Positions 48,044 through 57,712 of a stretch of DNA of 58,941 bases are shown piece by piece. The notes under the pieces were generated by a model, which saw only the letters and a list, made by a program, of their open reading frames with translations, was not told the DNA's origin and did no database searches. Position 1 is the first letter of the stretch; every line of letters begins with the position of its first letter. Source of the stretch: Dethiobacter alkaliphilus (lineage in GTDB: Bacteria; Bacillota; Dethiobacteria; DTU022; UBA8154); NCBI GenBank assembly GCA_016841605.1, contig JAENYV010000013.1, positions 51,372 through 110,312 of the forward strand, in the 5' to 3' direction. The translations under genes were made by a program, and so were the position numbers.

Positions 48044-50284
48044 TTAATTCCGACTGAAAATAGTTGATCGCTTGCAGAGCAGGATCAAGCCCGCCACGCA
48101 CAAAAGAACTGTCATCCCAAGCCAGGGTTTATAGAGCAGGTAAATAAGGGCGATGACTGGACTAAGCAAGACCCGGATGATGAAGCACAAGGCTCCGTTA
48201 GTCGCAATGTATGCGGCAATTTTAGGTGAATGTTTGTAGTAGTAGACGACGAATGCTTGCCCTGTCGCCGTTGTCAGCAGAAAATCATCCCGAAAATTTC
48301 TCAGTATGGAGACAGCGGGTTGGAACTTTGAACCATAGGCGGCCGTAGCAATAAAACACTCATCCGCTGCATAGGCAATTTCTCCCCAGATCTCATAACC
48401 GTCACTGGAGGACGCAGAGCAAGTATACTGTACTCTGACCTCAAAAGAATTATCTCCTGATTGCAGGCTTACCGGTACAGAGAAAGTCCCGTTATCCATA
48501 TCAAGGTTGCTCAGTATGTCCTGATATTCTTCTCCGTTTAATCTTAATTGCAGGCTTTCAATGCTCTCAAGCGCTCCATAATTGCTGATAAATCCAGTTA
48601 TGTCAATGTCCCGGCTGCTGGTGGTATCATGCAAACCCGGCTGTGTAATATGGAGCATAGGAATGATGGTGAAGGGGACTGAAAACTCTTGTACGGTTCG
48701 TCCGGCATCACTGTAAATCCTCATTTCATAGGCTCCAACCGGAAACTGTTCATCTATTATGGGAACTGATACGTATTCCCAACTCCCTTCCCAGTCTTGC
48801 TGTTCGAAATTGATATCAACATTCCCGGAGCTTCCGGAATAAGGACTCCCATCTTGATATACCCGTCCATAATAGGTAACCGGTGTGGTATCGATGACAT
48901 TACGCAGGTGGAATTCATACCCCTCTCCCGCAGGTAAAATATTGAGGACGGAACTTTCAAAGTAAGCCTGCAGGTTTCGGTCACCGGTAATATTAAAAGT
49001 ATAATCTGCGGAGGTACTCGCCTCAACGTCGTTTTCTTTCCAGTTTACAAAGCGAAATCCTTTACCGGGGGTTGCTCTTACGGTAACTTCAGCATTTTGA
49101 TCATACAGTCCGTCGCCGGAAACGCTTCCCCCTGATGCCGGGATTGCTTCCAGGCAGACCGTGTACCGGGGTGGAGAGTAGTGAAATAAACGGATTCCTT
49201 CGGCTGACCACCATCCTATATAGCCGTTATGCACCACCGGATCGCTGTCACTGACGGCATTGTTACTTACACGATACATTTGACCGATGGCGGTATTGTA
49301 GAGCATGATTTCAATAAATGAGGAGTTGCGGTACAGATCCCAGACGATCAAACCATCGTGAAACTCTATATTTGAATTGTCATCCAGTACGGATAACCCA
49401 TCGGGAGCCATAATTCGACAGGCGTTGTTTCCATCATAGTAATAAAGTTTAAGTGAGCCGTAGTAGGTGTCTATCCAAACCGCTTTGCCGTTATCGAGCC
49501 GCAGGTTTTTCTTGTAATTGCCGGTGTCTGTAACCAGGGTTTTGCTGCCTGTAGTATGGTCCCATAAGTACACGGAATCAGTGGAGCTGCTCTTGGTTTT
49601 GTCATAGAGCACCTGACCGTTATCGGCGTCATAATCGTTTGATATGGTATCAATCAGTTGGGTTTGTGCTCCATCATAACAGTAAAGTCTGGATATGGCA
49701 TCTTTGAATATCAACAGGTCGCCTGTTACATGGACACTGGCCACCATTTTGTTGTCCGGAATGTTAATTGTTTCAGTCTCATTTGTTGCCTGGCGGTAGA
49801 ACTTAATGCAGTCTTTTCCCCCGGTGCGTTCTACCCAGGCCATATTACCATCGTCCATATCCATGCTTTGAAAACCTTTGGATGAGAGAGTCTGCACTTC
49901 ATCGGTGGTCCTGGACCATAGCTGGACCACGTTGCTGCTCCCACTGGACCAGCCCACCCATTGACCGTCAATTACATAAAAAGCATCATAGGTATTGGGC
50001 AGGGCTGTCAACGGTGTTGTCACAGTATTTTCCCCATCATAGTACATGAGATTATATTCGCCGGTTGCCGGATTACTGCGGCGCCATATGACGCCCGGAC
50101 CATCCTGATCCGCATAAACCCCGGCAAACCTGTCGGTGTTACAGGCAGATACATTGATTGTCGTCCCCGGGGCCGGGGGGATTTCTTCGGCAGCGGCGCT
50201 GCCTGCTGTCCAAAAGCAGTTCATACCGGCCATAAGAACAATAATAACCAGATACGTGCTCAATTGCTTAGATAATCGTGTCAT
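48044..50284 (-). CDS. Secreted beta-propeller/InlB-repeat protein with CFI-box C terminus
   Basis: Encodes 746 residues from ATG 50284 after AAGAGGTG. A signal peptide spans about 1-33 (ending Ala-Ala-Ala-Glu-Glu). Residues about 40-370 hold seven or so repeats of the kind (V.W/D...LW/YD....), as in TolB-like or Kelch-like beta-propellers. An InlB B-repeat follows (about 374-442; GGSVSGDG, GFRFVNW), then two Ig-like beta domains (about 443-640). Cys643 begins the CFI box, followed by two hydrophobic segments and Lys/Arg residues at the end. Propellers commonly bind ligands or partners. It lies 129 bases downstream of the subtilase gene on the same strand, so they may be co-transcribed, though a short palindrome and AT-rich leader allow a separate promoter. 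Confidence 0.88.
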   Translation of the reverse strand: MTRLSKQLSTYLVIIVLMAGMNCFWTAGSAAAEEIPPAPGTTINVSACNTDRFAGVYADQDGPGVIWRRSNPATGEYNLMYYDGENTVTTPLTALPNTYDAFYVIDGQWVGWSSGSSNVVQLWSRTTDEVQTLSSKGFQSMDMDDGNMAWVERTGGKDCIKFYRQATNETETINIPDNKMVASVHVTGDLLIFKDAISRLYCYDGAQTQLIDTISNDYDADNGQVLYDKTKSSSTDSVYLWDHTTGSKTLVTDTGNYKKNLRLDNGKAVWIDTYYGSLKLYYYDGNNACRIMAPDGLSVLDDNSNIEFHDGLIVWDLYRNSSFIEIMLYNTAIGQMYRVSNNAVSDSDPVVHNGYIGWWSAEGIRLFHYSPPRYTVCLEAIPASGGSVSGDGLYDQNAEVTVRATPGKGFRFVNWKENDVEASTSADYTFNITGDRNLQAYFESSVLNILPAGEGYEFHLRNVIDTTPVTYYGRVYQDGSPYSGSSGNVDINFEQQDWEGSWEYVSVPIIDEQFPVGAYEMRIYSDAGRTVQEFSVPFTIIPMLHITQPGLHDTTSSRDIDITGFISNYGALESIESLQLRLNGEEYQDILSNLDMDNGTFSVPVSLQSGDNSFEVRVQYTCSASSSDGYEIWGEIAYAADECFIATAAYGSKFQPAVSILRNFRDDFLLTTATGQAFVVYYYKHSPKIAAYIATNGALCFIIRVLLSPVIALIYLLYKPWLGMTVLLCVAGLILLCKRSTIFSRN

Positions 50285-50298
50285 TTATGCACCTCTTA

Positions 50299-50314
50299 AC
50301 TCAAATTTTTGAGT
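50299..50314. promoter_or_regulatory. Palindrome just upstream of the propeller gene
   Basis: ACTCAAATTTTTGAGT has perfect 7-base arms and lies 14 bases before the start codon, next to the ribosome site. It could be an operator or a small leader hairpin. Confidence 0.3.
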
Positions 50315-50413
50315 ATTATTGTTTTATAATTATAATTTCTTGATAATAGAGTAAAATCCTTCCTTAAAAGATAATATCTATCACAAAAAGTAGGGGTGGT
50401 GGTGTTTTATCGA

Positions 50414-52798
50414 TCAAGGGAACAGGGATACAATCGTAACCACCGGTAGTAATAGTAGCCTGGTAATTGTTTTCAGGGTTTCGCTGCCAGCGATTATCCG
50501 GGCAAGGGGTGGGGAATAGCGGTAGTAGAGCTCCACCAGGAAGCGACCTGCGGCATTTTGCAGCAAGTACCTGTCACGGAAGCTGCGCAGGGTGATCACG
50601 TCGGCAGCCAGTGGCGATCCGTAGGCTGCGGTCGCAATAAAACAGTCTTCATTATAAGGGGTGGCCTCCAAGGGTTCCACTTGGAGCACAAAGGTTACGC
50701 CGCTTAAAGTTATCTGCAAGCTTTTTCCGGCCAGATGTCCGAGTTTTATCTCTCCATAGCTGTTGACCAGGGGATCCCCGGCGAGGGCTGTTACTTCGTC
50801 TTTAATTTCTGCAACAATGGAAAAGATATTATCTAAAGCTATTTCATCCCGGAGAAATACACGGTCATTAATAGTAATCCGGTCCGGGCGATAAGCTGTC
50901 TCCAATTCTTGCAAGGCACTCCAGGTGGCCGGGATACTAAAAGCCTGCTCTAGCGTCACCTCTTTATGTCGAGGGTTGACGGCAACAGTGACGGTCTCAC
51001 CTTCGGCTGTCGCCTGGAAATAAGCACCGGCATGTTCATTGATTTTCTCCGCCAGCAGTGTACCGGCATGTTCTGTAATGAGGGCGGTTGCGGCAGCAAA
51101 AGCGTCTACCAGGCCATAACCGTAACCATAGTTGGGCGAAGTGGGATAGCTTGCGTCCGTGAGGGGAAGTGCTGTTTCCTGAAGAATATTTTCCAGAATA
51201 TTAGCCCGTTCCTCAGCAGGTACTCCTTCCCAGGCATCTTCGATGGATAGAAGAAGCGTAGCTATTCCGGTCACGTGTGGCGCAGCCATGGAAGTGCCTG
51301 TTTTTGTCCCGTATAGTCCTCCCGGAAGAGAGGAAGTTATCTGTACACCGGGGGCGGAAATATTCGGCTTTATCAGGTCAGGAAAGGTTTGGACAGGTCC
51401 CCTGCTTGATTTTGAATGCAGAGTATTGTTCAATTGGCTTGTAGCTGCTACGGCAATACTGGAGGGCAGATGGGCCGGATTTGCGATGGTTTCGGCGGCA
51501 GGGCCATAATTACCTGCCGCAAATAAGGGCAGAATACCGGCGTTACGCCAGTTATTGAGCATATTTTGAAAATAATCATTTTGCTCCTCTGCCCCCCATG
51601 AATTGTTAATAATATCCGGTGCTTTTTCCGGATATGTAATGGCGGGGTTTTGGGGATTGTAAGGAGCAAGCAAATACTCTCCCGCTTTAAGAAGATCTCT
51701 GGCGGATGCAGTGCCGTCACTTGAATTAAAGGCATTCACCGCGATCCACTGGGCTTCCGGTGCTGTCCCGATGATATTTTCTTCTTGGGGATCCGACCCC
51801 AGAATAATACCCGTTACGTGAGTCCCGTGGCCGTCTACATCTCTCGGCAACGGGTAGTTCTCGACAACATCATACCAGTTAAAGAGAGGATCGGGGTTAT
51901 TCGGGTCAGCGGGGTTGTAACCCCGCCATTTTTGTTTTAGTGCTTCGTGCTGCCAGTCTACCCCTGTGTCGATAATACCCACGACAACGCCACTGCCGTC
52001 GAAGCCCAGCAAGTTCCATACTTCCGGTGCTCTAACCCGTTCAATATTCCACTTTGCAGAAGCGTATATATCCAGGCTGTAAACAGTTTCCAAAATAGTA
52101 TCGTTAGTATCATCTGTATTATCTGACGAAAAATAATCATTTTTTTCCGTTACAGGAGCCATGTTTTCTTGGATGATATTGTTGGCGGACTTAGCTTCTT
52201 CTCTAATATTGTGAATATTATGTCTATTTTTCTCTAAATCGGTTGTTTCACTGTTTTCATCTTCTATCTGTTCATCTTGTTGTTTATCTTGCCCACCCAG
52301 GGAAAAGGTCTGGTTGGGCAAGATCGCCTCAATGCCCGGGAAGTGTTCCAGGTGACGGATAACATCCCTGTTTGCTTTAAGATAAACCATATTGACAATA
52401 TAATAATCTTTAATTTCCAGGACATTGCCCCTTTCCTGCTCTTGTTGCAGGAAGTCCAGGAGGGGTTTCTGCGTAGAAGCAGCCTTCTCCTTCAGGGAAT
52501 GGACTACTGCCTTACGGGCTGCCAGCGTCAATTGACGGGCATTAGTCGCCTTATCTGCGACTTTTGCCCGTGCTTCTCCGGCAATGCGGGCCGTATCAAC
52601 CTGCTCCTTCATTTGGATCAGAACTTCAACATATTCTTCCTGATCAAGTGCTTCCACAATAGTGTGGTGGATCGTGACTCGGGCAATTTTATCGTCATCC
52701 GGTTGGGCATTGACGGAAAAACCTGTTAAAAAAGGTATTATTGCCTGAATAAAAAGGAATAAAACGGCCACTGGTAAAATAGTTTTCTTAAAACGCAT
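50414..52798 (-). CDS. Subtilisin-family (S8) serine protease with short CFI-box tail
   Basis: Encodes 794 residues from ATG 52798, nine bases after AAGGGG; the ATG at 52807 abuts that site. A signal peptide covers about 1-31 and an inhibitor-I9-like propeptide about 35-165. An acidic Asn/Asp linker leads to the S8 catalytic domain (about 245-575). The triad is visible as Asp277 (GIIDTGVD), His324 (DGHGTHVTG) and Ser503 (GTSMAAPH), with oxyanion Asn430 (AAGNYG), so it should be active. A copper-amine-oxidase-N-like region may follow near 620-710. Cys719 starts the CFI box, but the protein stops after one hydrophobic segment, about 28 residues earlier than its three relatives. Sharing this tail with three neighbouring proteins suggests it acts in the same envelope compartment, possibly on them (inference). 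Confidence 0.92.
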
Positions 52799-52868
52799 GG
52801 CATACATCCCCTTTTTTCGTTTCCGATTAGCCTTTCAAGATAATACTACATGATTCTCCCTTAAAATC

Positions 52869-53442: not shown

Positions 53443-53496
53443 TATAATTATCATAATTTTCTTTTAGATCTTTTACGAGAAATTTTGGGAGAAAAG

Positions 53497-54309
53497 ATGA
53501 TTGATTTTCATTGCCATATATTGCCGGATATGGATGACGGTTCTCCCTCCATGGACGAATCTTTAGAGATGGCCAGACAGTTAGCTTTAATGGGTTTTTC
53601 CGCTATTTTGGCCACACCTCATCTCATGGAGGATTATTTTGTTTGGCAGGAAGATATTTTAGAAGAAAAGGTGGAGCAGTTAAATGCTGCCTGCCGGCAA
53701 GCAGAACTTCCAGTGACGGTATATCCCGGGGCAGAGCTTTTGCTTTCACCGTGGGTATTAGATTTGCTCTCCGCTGGAAAACTTCCCACTCTAAACAAAA
53801 GCAGCTACCTTTTATTTGAAATACCTCTGACTCAGCCTTTAACGGAGTTTTGTGAAGAGCTTTTTTTTCGTTTAAGAACGCAGGGATACGAACTTGTGCT
53901 CGCCCATCCCGAGCGCTGCCTGACCTTCCAGGAAGAGCCCCGGAAATTGCTCGACCTGCGCAAATATGAGTTACTCTACCAGCTTAATTTGTCCAGTTTG
54001 ACCGGTCACTTCGGGGAGAATTCCCGAAAGTTGGCCATTGATCTGCTCAAACAAAATCTGATTACCTTTATCGGCAGTGATGCTCACCATTCAGGAGAAG
54101 GGAGAATGGGTGACATACCGTCCGCTCTGGAAATTTTGCGCCGATACGCGGGGAAAGACGGGATGGATTTATTGTTGGAAAAAAATCCTTTGAAAGCTTT
54201 GAACAACGAACGCATTAATGTAGAGTTTATTTCTCCTGAAAAAGACGGGGAAAAACCCGGCCATAAGGTTTCCTTATTAGATAAAATATTTAAAAGAAGA
54301 CGACGCTAG
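53497..54309 (+). CDS. cpsB: CpsB/YwqE-type tyrosine-protein phosphatase (PHP domain)
   Basis: Encodes 270 residues; ATG 53497 follows GGGAGA (53487-53492), and the TTG at 53485 is part of that site. The PHP metal-binding motifs are all present: DFHCHILPDMDDGS at the N terminus, ATPHLMEDYF, AHPERC near 140, and GSDAHHSG near 190. The family removes phosphate from the tyrosine cluster of the cognate CpsD/CapB kinase and so controls exopolysaccharide or capsule output. The length is close to the usual 240-260 aa plus a Lys/Arg-rich tail (KIFKRRRR) that may contact the membrane or nucleic acid. It is followed directly by the polymerase regulator and kinase genes, the standard Firmicute trio. Confidence 0.93.
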   Translation: MIDFHCHILPDMDDGSPSMDESLEMARQLALMGFSAILATPHLMEDYFVWQEDILEEKVEQLNAACRQAELPVTVYPGAELLLSPWVLDLLSAGKLPTLNKSSYLLFEIPLTQPLTEFCEELFFRLRTQGYELVLAHPERCLTFQEEPRKLLDLRKYELLYQLNLSSLTGHFGENSRKLAIDLLKQNLITFIGSDAHHSGEGRMGDIPSALEILRRYAGKDGMDLLLEKNPLKALNNERINVEFISPEKDGEKPGHKVSLLDKIFKRRRR

Positions 54310-54363
54310 TGTAAATTCTGTCCGTTGTTAAGAAGTCTTCAGGAAGAGGGGTGTGAGAAAAGA

Positions 54364-55065
54364 ATGGAAGAAGAATTAGAACTGCGAGATATTTGGGAAG
54401 TTATTATTAAACATCGGGTACTTCTGATCGTTATACCCATAGTTGCAGTGCTGCTCAGTGCGATATACAGCTATTACATTGTTGAACCCCAGTACGAAGC
54501 ATCAACGACCATGATGGTCCTGCATTCCACTGAAAGCGGAGCGGAATCTTATCTCAAAAGCGCCGATATTCAGCTCAGCAGGCAGTTGGTCAAAACTTAC
54601 GGTGAAATTGCCCAAAGTCGCCGGGTTGCGGAAAAAGCCATCGAACTTGCCGGAGAAGAGACGACTGTCTCTATCGAAGGTCTGCAGGGAAAAACAGGTG
54701 TCAGCCTGGTAAAAGATACGGAACTGATCAGTATCACCGTCAAAGATAACAATCCACAGCGCGCTGCTTACTGGTCAACGATGGTCACCAAAGCTTTTAT
54801 GGACGAAGTTGTTAATATCATGCGCATCGAAAATGTTAATGTCCTGGACGAAGCATTTCCACCGTCGACTCCCGTGAGCCCTAGACCCAAACTCAATATG
54901 GCTGTGGCTTTTGTGCTGGGATTAATGATAGCCCTGGGTCTGGCTTTCCTGCTGGAGTACCTGGACAATACCATTAAGCTTCCTAAAGATGTTATTGATA
55001 CTCTGCAGCTTCAAGTTCTTGGTACTATCCCCGACTTTACGCAAAAATCTGGAGATGCTTATTAA
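54364..55065 (+). CDS. Wzz/CapA-type polysaccharide chain-length regulator and kinase activator
   Basis: Encodes 233 residues. ATG 54364 is preceded by AGGAAGAGGGG; a TTG at 54325 would start before that site. Topology is that of the Wzz family: cytoplasmic N terminus with ELELRDIWEVI, transmembrane 1 (about 18-38), an extracytoplasmic domain with helices, a Pro-rich motif (PPSTPVSPRPK) and transmembrane 2 (about 180-200). In Firmicutes this adaptor is separate from its kinase, and its cytoplasmic C-terminal tail activates it. The kinase gene begins 21 bases downstream, in agreement with that arrangement. Confidence 0.9.
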   Translation: MEEELELRDIWEVIIKHRVLLIVIPIVAVLLSAIYSYYIVEPQYEASTTMMVLHSTESGAESYLKSADIQLSRQLVKTYGEIAQSRRVAEKAIELAGEETTVSIEGLQGKTGVSLVKDTELISITVKDNNPQRAAYWSTMVTKAFMDEVVNIMRIENVNVLDEAFPPSTPVSPRPKLNMAVAFVLGLMIALGLAFLLEYLDNTIKLPKDVIDTLQLQVLGTIPDFTQKSGDAY

Positions 55066-55086: not shown

Positions 55087-55899
55087 ATGGAAGAGCATAA
55101 CAAAAACGATAATACAGGCCTTATTTCGCTGATTAAACCCAAATCACCCATTGCAGAGGCCTATCATACACTCCGTACCAATATTCTTTTTGCCGGTCTT
55201 GACAACCCCATTAAATCTGTGCTGGTTACCAGCGCATTTCCCCAGAGCGGGAAAACAACTACCGTCGCCAACCTGGGGGTAACTATCGCCCGGACCGGTG
55301 CCAATGTTCTTATTGTGGACGCGGATCTGCGCCGTCCGGCCCAGCACCGTGTTTTTAAACTGGATAATAAGGTCGGTCTAACGTCACTTCTGGTTAACGA
55401 AAACATGGCCATGGAGGAGGCCGTGAAGAAAACAAATGTTGAGAATCTTTCTTTGCTTACCAGCGGTCCGCTACCGCCCAATCCTTCCGAATTGATCGTC
55501 AGCAGGGCTTTTGCTGCTCTGATCGACAAGATAAAAGCAAATTATGATATTATGTTAATTGACTCGCCTCCGGCAATAGCCGTTACGGACCCCGCGCTCT
55601 TGTCCCGCTTTGTAGACGGTACGATCCTGGTCATTGACTTCGGCCGAGTTCCCCGGGATATGGCCCAGAAGGCCAAGGAACAGCTGGTTAATGTAAAGGC
55701 CAATATAATCGGTGTTGTTCTCAATAAGATCCCCTCCAACGGTCACGGCTATTATTACTACTATTATTATCGTTACTATGGTGAGGGAGCGGATAGGGTC
55801 AAAAAGCGCAGCAAAAGTAAAAGACATCGCACGCGCTCAGAGCGCTCAGAGCAAAAACCATTCCGCCGGTGGCTGCAGGCCTTTTTTAAAAAAGCCTGA
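55087..55899 (+). CDS. CpsD/CapB-type bacterial tyrosine kinase
   Basis: Encodes 270 residues starting at ATG 55087. BY-kinase motifs are clear: Walker A (PQSGKTTTVANLG), Walker A' (VLIVDADLRRP) and Walker B (IMLIDSPPA), with an N-terminal KSPIAEAYHTLRTNI that serves activator and oligomer contacts. The C-terminal tyrosine cluster is striking, with seven Tyr in a row (GYYYYYYYRYYGEG); these are the expected autophosphorylation sites. A Lys/Arg/Ser-rich tail of about 35 residues follows. The kinase acts with the adjacent membrane adaptor and is reversed by the CpsB phosphatase. It is the last gene of the operon. Confidence 0.94.
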   Translation: MEEHNKNDNTGLISLIKPKSPIAEAYHTLRTNILFAGLDNPIKSVLVTSAFPQSGKTTTVANLGVTIARTGANVLIVDADLRRPAQHRVFKLDNKVGLTSLLVNENMAMEEAVKKTNVENLSLLTSGPLPPNPSELIVSRAFAALIDKIKANYDIMLIDSPPAIAVTDPALLSRFVDGTILVIDFGRVPRDMAQKAKEQLVNVKANIIGVVLNKIPSNGHGYYYYYYYRYYGEGADRVKKRSKSKRHRTRSERSEQKPFRRWLQAFFKKA

Positions 55900-55940: not shown

Positions 55941-55989
55941 AAAAATAGGACGAAGGGACAGGTTTCTTGTCCCACTCGTCCTATTTTTT
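55941..55989. terminator. Bidirectional terminator between the kinase operon and the 80-aa gene
   Basis: AAAAATAGGACGA-GGGACA pairs with TGTCCC-TCGTCCTATTTTT around a short loop, with one mismatch position. A T run follows on each strand, so it can end both converging transcripts. Confidence 0.9.
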
Positions 55990-56045: not shown

Positions 56046-56288
56046 TTATTGCTTACATAAATTAATGAACTTTTTAGCCATTTGTAACTGATCTTTCAGT
56101 GTTTGTATAATTCGTCCGTTTTGATTTTGACCATTATTTCCATTTTCTTTTTGAGCCCGGTGGATCATGTATTCGACTTCCCTCTGTGAGTAACCGATGT
56201 TAACAAGTGCTTCTTTAAGTTCTTCAATTTCCCCCCCCAATTTGTCAAAATTTTTGGAAGCGTGTTTTTTTGAAATTGAATTAAACAT
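56046..56288 (-). CDS. 80-aa protein under c-di-GMP riboswitch control, unknown function
   Basis: Encodes 80 residues from ATG 56288, preceded by AAGGAGA at 7-8 bases. It is cytoplasmic, with no signal or membrane segment. A short stretch near residues 25-45 (LKEALVNIGYSQREVEYMI) resembles the three-helix UBA-like domain III of RuvA, which in RuvA contacts the RuvB motor. A polar Asn/Gln-rich linker and a C-terminal amphipathic helix (about 62-78) follow. The similarity covers one motif only, so it may be a protein-interaction fold rather than a recombination protein. The gene is monocistronic between the riboswitch and a terminator. c-di-GMP is therefore expected to set its level. Confidence 0.82.
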   Translation of the reverse strand: MFNSISKKHASKNFDKLGGEIEELKEALVNIGYSQREVEYMIHRAQKENGNNGQNQNGRIIQTLKDQLQMAKKFINLCKQ

Positions 56289-56336
56289 AAAAAGTCTCCT
56301 TATGGTATTATTCCATACCTAGAAGACATTTCCCAG

Positions 56337-56426
56337 ATATGGTCTTTTGCAGCCGGGCTGTCTAAAAATTTAGATCCCTGGCTTTGCGTCCTTGCCTCGC
56401 GGCATGTTTGCCCTCCAAGCCCATAT
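56337..56426 (-). ncRNA. c-di-GMP-I (GEMM) riboswitch aptamer
   Basis: On the minus strand the conserved core is present: GGGCAAAC, a stem ATGCC/GGCAA capped by a GCGA tetraloop, GGACGCAAAGCC, then a second hairpin with TCTAAA/TTTAGA, GGG/CCC and AGCC/GGCT stems. The closing stem pairs ATATGG (56426-56421) with CCATAT (56342-56337). A TATGG/CCATA hairpin between aptamer and ribosome site (about 56302-56318) could compete with the closing stem, which suggests control of translation start. Whether c-di-GMP turns the gene on or off cannot be told from the sequence. Confidence 0.9.
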
Positions 56427-56444
56427 TTTTGTATTGCAGTGCAT

Positions 56445-56473
56445 ATTTTAGTATAAAATGTCATAAAAGTCAA
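56445..56473 (-). promoter_or_regulatory. Promoter of the riboswitch transcript
   Basis: On the minus strand TTGACT (56473-56468) and TAAAAT (56450-56445) are 17 bases apart, each 5/6 to consensus. The start point would fall about 10 bases before the aptamer's first stem. Confidence 0.75.
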
Positions 56474-56601: not shown

Positions 56602-56640
56602 ACTACTAATTAAAAGGCTAAAGAATTGAGAGGTAATAGT

Positions 56641-57654
56641 ATGACGATATTAATAACCGGAGCAGGAGGTTTTATCGGCTTCCACTTAAGTAAAAGGTTG
56701 CTGGAAGACGGTTTTGAGGTTGTCGGAATGGATAACCTTAACGACTACTACGAAGTGGGCTTGAAGGAAAGCCGTCTGGACCTGCTGCAGGAATATCAAG
56801 GCTTTACTTTTGTGCAGGCTTCCCTAGAAGAAAGGGAGGCGGTGGAGAAGCTTTTTTCTGAGTATACTTTTTCCCGTGTTATCCATCTGGCCGCCCAGGC
56901 CGGGGTACGTTACAGCATTGAGAACCCCCATGTTTATATTAACTCCAATGTGGTAGGCTTTCTGAATGTGCTGGAAGGCTGCCGTCACCACCAAATTAAA
57001 CATCTGATATTTGCTTCTTCCAGTTCGGTTTACGGGGCCAACCGGACCAAGCCCTTTTCCGTGCACCACAATGTCGATCACCCGGTGAGTCTTTATGCTG
57101 CTACCAAAAAGGCTAACGAGCTAATGGCCCATACTTACAGCAGTTTGTATGGGTTGCCGGTAACGGGGCTGCGTTTTTTCACTGTTTACGGGCCCTGGGG
57201 CAGGCCGGATATGGCCTATTTTTCCTTTACCAGGGCTATTTTGGAAGAGAAGCCCATTAAAGTTTTTAATTATGGAAAGATGAAGCGGGATTTTACTTAT
57301 ATTGACGATATTGTGGAAGGAATCGTGCGATTGATTGATCTGGTGCCGGGACCCGACCCGCAGTGGGACGGTGAGCGGCCGGACCCGGGCCGTAGTTATG
57401 CTCCTTATCGTATTTATAACATCGGCAACAACCAGCCGGTGGAGCTTATGTATTTTATCCGGTTGCTGGAACAGGCTCTGGGGAAGGAAGCAAAGAAGGA
57501 ACTGCTACCCATGCAGCCGGGAGACGTGCTGGAGACCTTTGCCGATATTGACGACCTGGAGCGGGAGGTCGGTTTCCGGCCGGGGACAAGTATTGAGGAA
57601 GGGATCGGGAAATTTGTGAATTGGTATAAGAAATATTACGGAAAAACAGTTTAA
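56641..57654 (+). CDS. UDP-glucuronate 4-epimerase-like NAD-dependent sugar epimerase
   Basis: Encodes 337 residues; ATG 56641 is six bases after GAGAGGT, and the upstream TTG (56626) precedes that site. It is an extended short-chain dehydrogenase. The NAD-binding GAGGFIG motif sits at the N terminus, followed by a DNLNDYYEVGLK segment, HLAAQAGVRYSIENP, the catalytic Ser/Tyr/Lys set (SSSSVYG and YAATKKANE), and the TVYGPWGRPDMA substrate loop. These last features are typical of enzymes that interconvert UDP-glucuronate and UDP-galacturonate (LpsL/CapI type). Length is normal. Acting next to the tyrosine-kinase operon, it probably supplies uronic acid precursors for an exopolysaccharide. It has its own promoter and a 17-bp hairpin behind it. 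Confidence 0.9.
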   Translation: MTILITGAGGFIGFHLSKRLLEDGFEVVGMDNLNDYYEVGLKESRLDLLQEYQGFTFVQASLEEREAVEKLFSEYTFSRVIHLAAQAGVRYSIENPHVYINSNVVGFLNVLEGCRHHQIKHLIFASSSSVYGANRTKPFSVHHNVDHPVSLYAATKKANELMAHTYSSLYGLPVTGLRFFTVYGPWGRPDMAYFSFTRAILEEKPIKVFNYGKMKRDFTYIDDIVEGIVRLIDLVPGPDPQWDGERPDPGRSYAPYRIYNIGNNQPVELMYFIRLLEQALGKEAKKELLPMQPGDVLETFADIDDLEREVGFRPGTSIEEGIGKFVNWYKKYYGKTV

Positions 57655-57661
57655 TTAATTA

Positions 57662-57701
57662 GGGGGCAGAAAGGGACATTTCCCTGTCCCTTTCTGCCCC
57701 C
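57662..57701. terminator. Long hairpin after the epimerase gene
   Basis: Perfect 17-base arms, GGGGGCAGAAAGGGACA (57662-57678) and TGTCCCTTTCTGCCCCC (57685-57701), flank a 6-base loop. No T run follows on the plus strand, so it may be a repeat or RNA-stabilising hairpin as much as a terminator. Its GGGACA/TGTCCC core recurs at 55941-55989. Confidence 0.65.
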
Positions 57702-57712
57702 TGAGACTTAAA

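Follow-up and report, generated by a model that had tools for sequence, protein, structure and literature searches.

A small-protein family linked to c-di-GMP riboswitches at exopolysaccharide loci, with a divergent member in Dethiobacter alkaliphilus

Results

A free-standing small gene in an exopolysaccharide locus

The window (the whole stretch of DNA analysed here, 58,941 nucleotides from Dethiobacter alkaliphilus) contains genes for CpsB, Wzz and a CpsD-like kinase, followed by a terminator, a small gene on the opposite strand and a sugar epimerase gene:

53485..54309, + strand: CpsB/CapC phosphatase (PF19567)
54325..55065, + strand: Wzz chain-length determinant (PF02706, PF13807)
55087..55899, + strand: CpsD-like tyrosine kinase (AAA_31, tyrosine-rich tail), convergent with the small gene
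55988-55941: bidirectional intrinsic terminator hairpin with T-runs on both sides (-28 kcal/mol, z -8.1), separating the small gene from the kinase gene
56288-56046, - strand: ORF of the small helical protein (80 aa), coordinates including the stop codon
56422-56345, - strand: c-di-GMP-I riboswitch aptamer (RF01051; 57.5 bits, E 1.2e-8)
56473-56445, - strand: sigma-A-like promoter TTGACT-17-TAAAAT (10/12 consensus matches), 5' of the aptamer
56626..57654, + strand: NAD-dependent sugar epimerase (PF01370), divergent

The small gene runs opposite to its neighbours and shares no operon with the polysaccharide genes. Its ORF is intact and preceded by the Shine-Dalgarno sequence AGGAG, and the terminator hairpin can stop transcription from either side. 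A preliminary description of this DNA had proposed a complete one-gene unit, and its parts (promoter, leader hairpin near the Shine-Dalgarno, intact ORF, strong terminator) were all found. Within the ORF lies a G8 tract (56231-56238, - strand), a possible slippage site that would change the frame; judged from sequence, slippage there might make the small gene phase-variable. Similar GGGACA...TGTCCC hairpins, perhaps a repetitive element, occupy the intergenic positions 55953-55975 and 57667-57702. Elsewhere in the window (48044-52807, - strand) are two large exported proteins, one of them subtilisin-like, that have a 10-residue motif near the C-terminus in common.

The riboswitch itself is of a known class, and the covariance model confirmed its presence: the match spans the full model (positions 1-87), scores well over the Rfam gathering cut-off of 35 bits, and is the sole gathering-level Rfam match in the window. 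The earlier label 'near-canonical' is slightly generous. Unlike a typical RF01051 aptamer, this one has GCGA rather than GAAA in the loop after GGCAAAC and a shortened outer P3 in the alignment to the model, it scores lowest of the linked class I set (those ahead of homologues reach 69-90 bits), and the protein family it controls has no Pfam or NCBIfam model. The base preceding the conserved GGCAAA is G in the window and A in the leaders of L051, L118, L114 and L117, a difference that might reflect another ligand such as cGAMP.

Because the window's own genome holds two further c-di-GMP-I aptamers and 16 GGDEF domains above cut-off, c-di-GMP is probably made there. Locus L001 of this genome (C4) has a stronger aptamer (1501-1589, 80.5 bits). 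Behind it come a terminator-like hairpin and an ORF for a small protein of 81 aa, Cys-rich and zinc-ribbon-like (1829-2074), another unnamed possible target. At locus L003 (C6) a weak aptamer (1501-1582, 48.6 bits) adjoins a reverse-transcriptase-like ORF on the same strand (1596-2180), probably a group II intron fragment.

Predicted folding of the leader

The 56 nt between aptamer and ATG contain a predicted sequestor/antisequestor pair. The elements of the predicted switch, all on the - strand, are:

56421..56425: P1 5' strand UAUGG, predicted to pair with 56342-56338
56338..56342: P1 3' strand CCAUA, doubling as the start of the antisequestor (from sequence and folding)
56313..56342: 12-bp antisequestor hairpin CCAUAUCUGGGA...UUCUAGGUAUGG, in the minimum-free-energy state (-45.9 kcal/mol)
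56294..56327: Shine-Dalgarno sequestor hairpin GUCUUCU...AGGAGAC (Shine-Dalgarno 3% unpaired)

Folded without ligand, the leader has two nearly isoenergetic structures (-45.9 vs -45.8 kcal/mol) with opposite access to the Shine-Dalgarno. One has a closed P1 (UAUGG:CCAUA) together with the GUCUUCU:AGGAGAC pairing that masks the Shine-Dalgarno; the second has CCAUAUCUGGGA paired to UUCUAGGUAUGG, which excludes that sequestor. When the region 3' of P1 is folded alone, the Shine-Dalgarno is 3% unpaired against a shuffle mean of 44%, and 1.3% of shuffles are as low. Because ligand stabilises P1, which shares CCAUA with the antisequestor, repression by c-di-GMP is predicted. Over the whole unliganded ensemble the Shine-Dalgarno is only 18% free, which could mean that switching is leaky or governed by the kinetics of transcription.

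The leader of L122 gives a like sequestor signal (1.7% of shuffles as low) and that of L116 is borderline (9.7%); by the same shuffle test the signal is absent from 7 of 10 class I or I-GGC leaders. We therefore rejected an off-switch kept across all leaders, and treat off polarity as a prediction for the window leader, not as a family rule.

Distant relatives of the small helical protein

Used as a single-sequence query, the window protein found no relative in genome contigs, viral contigs, phages or plasmids, and none turned up in its own genus or class. A search of 150 genomes returned one weak match, L006, whose sequence points to true kinship: the two proteins are equal in size, begin similarly and both contain an EYMI-RAQ stretch. 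In the reverse direction, the L006 protein alone recovers the window protein at 8.9e-4 (one genome), and as a query it led to four further strong members. Another candidate from the 150-genome search, L005, proved to be an ordinary RuvA. Profile searches then placed the family in 24 of 398 genomes of the phylum (E<=1e-4, a few matches lying inside longer unrelated frames) and in 38 of 113 genomes of one class (E<=1e-3). In all, we count 47 distinct members across the phylum, window included, among them proteins of Desulforamulus aeronauticus, Heliophilum fasciatum, Desulfotomaculum MAGs and Peptococcaceae BRH_c8a. The window protein aligns with them over the three-helix core with its G-Y/F motif, by sequence and profile match; it is a divergent member (identity to relatives <=36%, branch length 2.15 in the family tree) and is without the conserved loop that links helix 2 to helix 3.

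The preliminary description of the product as small, soluble, uncharacterised and encoded among polysaccharide genes agrees with these searches: the window protein matches no Pfam or NCBIfam family at cut-off, nor does any of eight family members tested singly, and PHROGs gave no meaningful match. AlphaFold models the window protein as a three-helix bundle (helices 11-31, 35-48 and 53-79; mean pLDDT 82), confident in all three helices, and a second model, of the L051 homologue, has three helices in the same layout (mean pLDDT 74.7).

A RuvA-domain-III-like identity, also suggested earlier, is not supported. The likeness to the RuvA C-terminal domain (RuvA_C, PF07499) is a helix-GY-helix stretch of ~27 residues at 20.0 bits, below the cut-off of 24, and only 1 of 23 family members matches RuvA_C at E<0.01. 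Unlike RuvA, the small protein is without domains I-II, and a long third helix is part of its family. RuvA chains (7oa5) superpose on the window model with TM 0.38-0.40 and Z 2.9, and many unrelated helical bundles rank higher. With the same model Foldseek gave no match at E<=0.001, and VIA-align gave middling Z values of the kind usual for helical bundles; its best matches, 4cc9 chain B (8.8) and the immunity protein 4nsr (7.6), were not read as kin. Searching PDB sequences with the family profile recovered mostly designed helical proteins, plus weak RuvA chains.

Repeated linkage to c-di-GMP aptamers

All loci were found by protein search only, and the RNA-family scan was done afterwards. 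The small gene is conserved as a divergent family whose members repeatedly follow c-di-GMP (GEMM) aptamers, and such an aptamer lies directly upstream on the same strand in 17 of the 47 distinct members:

Class I (n=9): L051/L038, L053/L040, L054/L108, L056/L041, L104/L073, L116, L118, L122, window
I-GGC variant (n=2): L114, L117
Class II (n=2): L094, L097/L067
II-GAG variant (n=4): L098/L064, L096/L066, L099/L068, L101/L070

With a generous background of 1% per gene, the binomial probability of this linkage is ~1e-22 (computed with 45 members); relatives were seen with up to 20 aptamers per genome, usually far fewer, so that 1% is an upper bound. The other 30 members have no aptamer, and a relaxed-threshold rescan of loci without gathering-level aptamers revealed no hidden c-di-GMP aptamer.

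In the family tree, which is built on few columns and leaves many inner forks open, one half (95/98 support) carries class I and I-GGC aptamers and the other class II and II-GAG, the exception being the long-branched L104 with class I. Aptamers of class I and class II are not related in structure. Since the classes follow the halves of the tree, recruitment probably took place at least twice, and a single protein family seems to have acquired unrelated c-di-GMP sensors.

One branch without aptamers has a different setting. L103, L111, L113, L120, L121 and L126 adjoin tRNA genes, several with a tRNA-Sec-like match nearby; no aptamer lies upstream in L103, L111, L113, L120 or L121, and exopolysaccharide genes are absent near the four tRNA-adjacent loci examined. 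Aptamer-free members such as these indicate that c-di-GMP is not the exclusive concern of the wider family, which has other uses. The window's own genome also encodes a paralogue (L086, C33, 3720-3977) without an aptamer or nearby exopolysaccharide genes.

Exopolysaccharide genes near linked members

The setting seen in the window recurs in relatives, which makes the tie to surface polysaccharide stronger than the preliminary description could tell from one locus. Core exopolysaccharide genes (CpsB, Wzz, CpsD-like kinase or O-antigen ligase, within about 5 kb) lie near 13 of the 17 aptamer-linked members; of 20 stretches chosen arbitrarily from these genomes, 2 have them (Fisher p 5e-5). The comparison somewhat favours the linked group because the query proteins came partly from linked loci. 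If SLH, CapD, epimerase and glycosyltransferase genes are included, 15 of the 17 linked loci qualify, and the Pfam names of 20 neighbours agree with the assigned gene classes. Core genes are missing nearby in 4 of the 17, and L104 and L161 are linked members away from exopolysaccharide genes. In L166, L167 and L168/L057 the small gene lies directly behind a kinase gene and has no aptamer, which suggests a tie to the kinase that is independent of the RNA.

Discussion

The computations show the aptamer, the gene, the protein family and its recurrent linkage both to c-di-GMP aptamers and to exopolysaccharide genes. Function is inferred from linkage only, and ligand binding, switch polarity, the partner and the sense of the effect are likewise inferred. 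We consider it somewhat probable that the small protein, made from a free-standing gene under an off-switch, modulates exopolysaccharide assembly under c-di-GMP control and is partnered with the neighbouring Wzz/CpsD/CpsB machinery. Transcription would start upstream of the aptamer. Bound c-di-GMP would close P1 (UAUGG:CCAUA) and so block the 12-bp antisequestor; GUCUUCU:AGGAGAC would then hide the Shine-Dalgarno and translation would drop. With no ligand, the antisequestor could free the Shine-Dalgarno. The three-helix protein would most likely bind part of the Wzz, CpsD-type tyrosine kinase or CpsB phosphatase machinery and modulate polysaccharide assembly. Given the predicted off-switch, the small protein may be a brake that is lifted by c-di-GMP. 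Against this reading stand the divergence of the window member and its missing loop, the failure to find a match to it in genus or class, the low score of its aptamer, the want of a sequestor signal in 7 of 10 class I or I-GGC leaders, the 4 linked loci with no core exopolysaccharide genes close by, the 30 members with no aptamer, and the lack of an operon joining the window gene to the polysaccharide genes. The small-adaptor role put forward in the preliminary description is a guess.

The protein might instead be regulated by c-di-GMP but have its target outside polysaccharide assembly, perhaps serving transcription or proteolysis as an adaptor or anti-regulator, so that its polysaccharide neighbourhood reflects no more than a common c-di-GMP regulon. 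Its generic three-helix bundle without a clear fold match would suit such a role, as would the transcription of the window gene against its neighbours, the placement of L104 and L161 away from exopolysaccharide genes, and the aptamer-free branch beside tRNA genes. We nevertheless regard action elsewhere as somewhat unlikely, given how often core exopolysaccharide genes accompany linked members (13/17 vs 2/20 controls) and given the three operon-like arrangements directly behind a kinase gene. The polarity is a separate question: c-di-GMP could switch the small gene on, and the protein would then activate polysaccharide assembly jointly with it. The general promotion of matrix production by c-di-GMP, the equal energy of the two unliganded leader states, a Shine-Dalgarno just 18% free in that ensemble and the want of a sequestor in most other leaders would all fit an on-switch, but in the window CCAUA is common to P1 and the antisequestor and ligand should favour the closed state, which makes this polarity unlikely.

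That the window copy is a decaying relic, with a weakened aptamer and a gene under relaxed selection, we hold to be improbable. In favour of decay are its long branch (2.15), an aptamer that scores lowest among the linked class I members, the failure to find a close relative in its genus or class, and the missing conserved loop. Against it, the copy retains an intact ORF along with its promoter, Shine-Dalgarno, bistable leader and terminator, and the AlphaFold model is confident in the three helices.

The window resembles a known control module, that of Wzz, CpsD (BY-kinase) and CpsB, in its locus, which it has in common with most aptamer-linked relatives. It differs in that control would run through an RNA sensor of c-di-GMP and not a PilZ or GGDEF-type protein receptor, and we know of no report of the small protein as a component of this module. 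In the openly accessible papers searched we found no description of a linkage between this protein and c-di-GMP aptamers (subscription papers, perhaps including the first descriptions of the variant aptamers, fell outside our search). Within that scope, neither the protein family nor its recurrent association, at exopolysaccharide loci, with four Rfam families of c-di-GMP aptamers appears to have been described. The I-GGC and II-GAG variants thereby gain a gene context. Because the class of aptamer differs between the halves of the tree, selection appears to keep c-di-GMP control, not any one RNA.

To our knowledge, c-di-GMP control of polysaccharide is largely an open matter in Gram-positive-type bacteria that use the Wzz/CpsD/CpsB module. 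A family encoded under c-di-GMP riboswitches beside that module is a direct, testable candidate for such control, and may be a missing link between the c-di-GMP signal and polysaccharide production. More broadly and more tentatively, this unrecognised family could quite possibly be devoted to relaying c-di-GMP to exopolysaccharide assembly within the phylum. RNA would read the signal, through structurally unrelated riboswitches of class I and class II that were each recruited independently, and the protein would set how active the Wzz/tyrosine-kinase/phosphatase module is. If true, this would be the RNA-sensed equivalent of the protein receptors of PilZ type that other bacteria use with their polysaccharide synthases.
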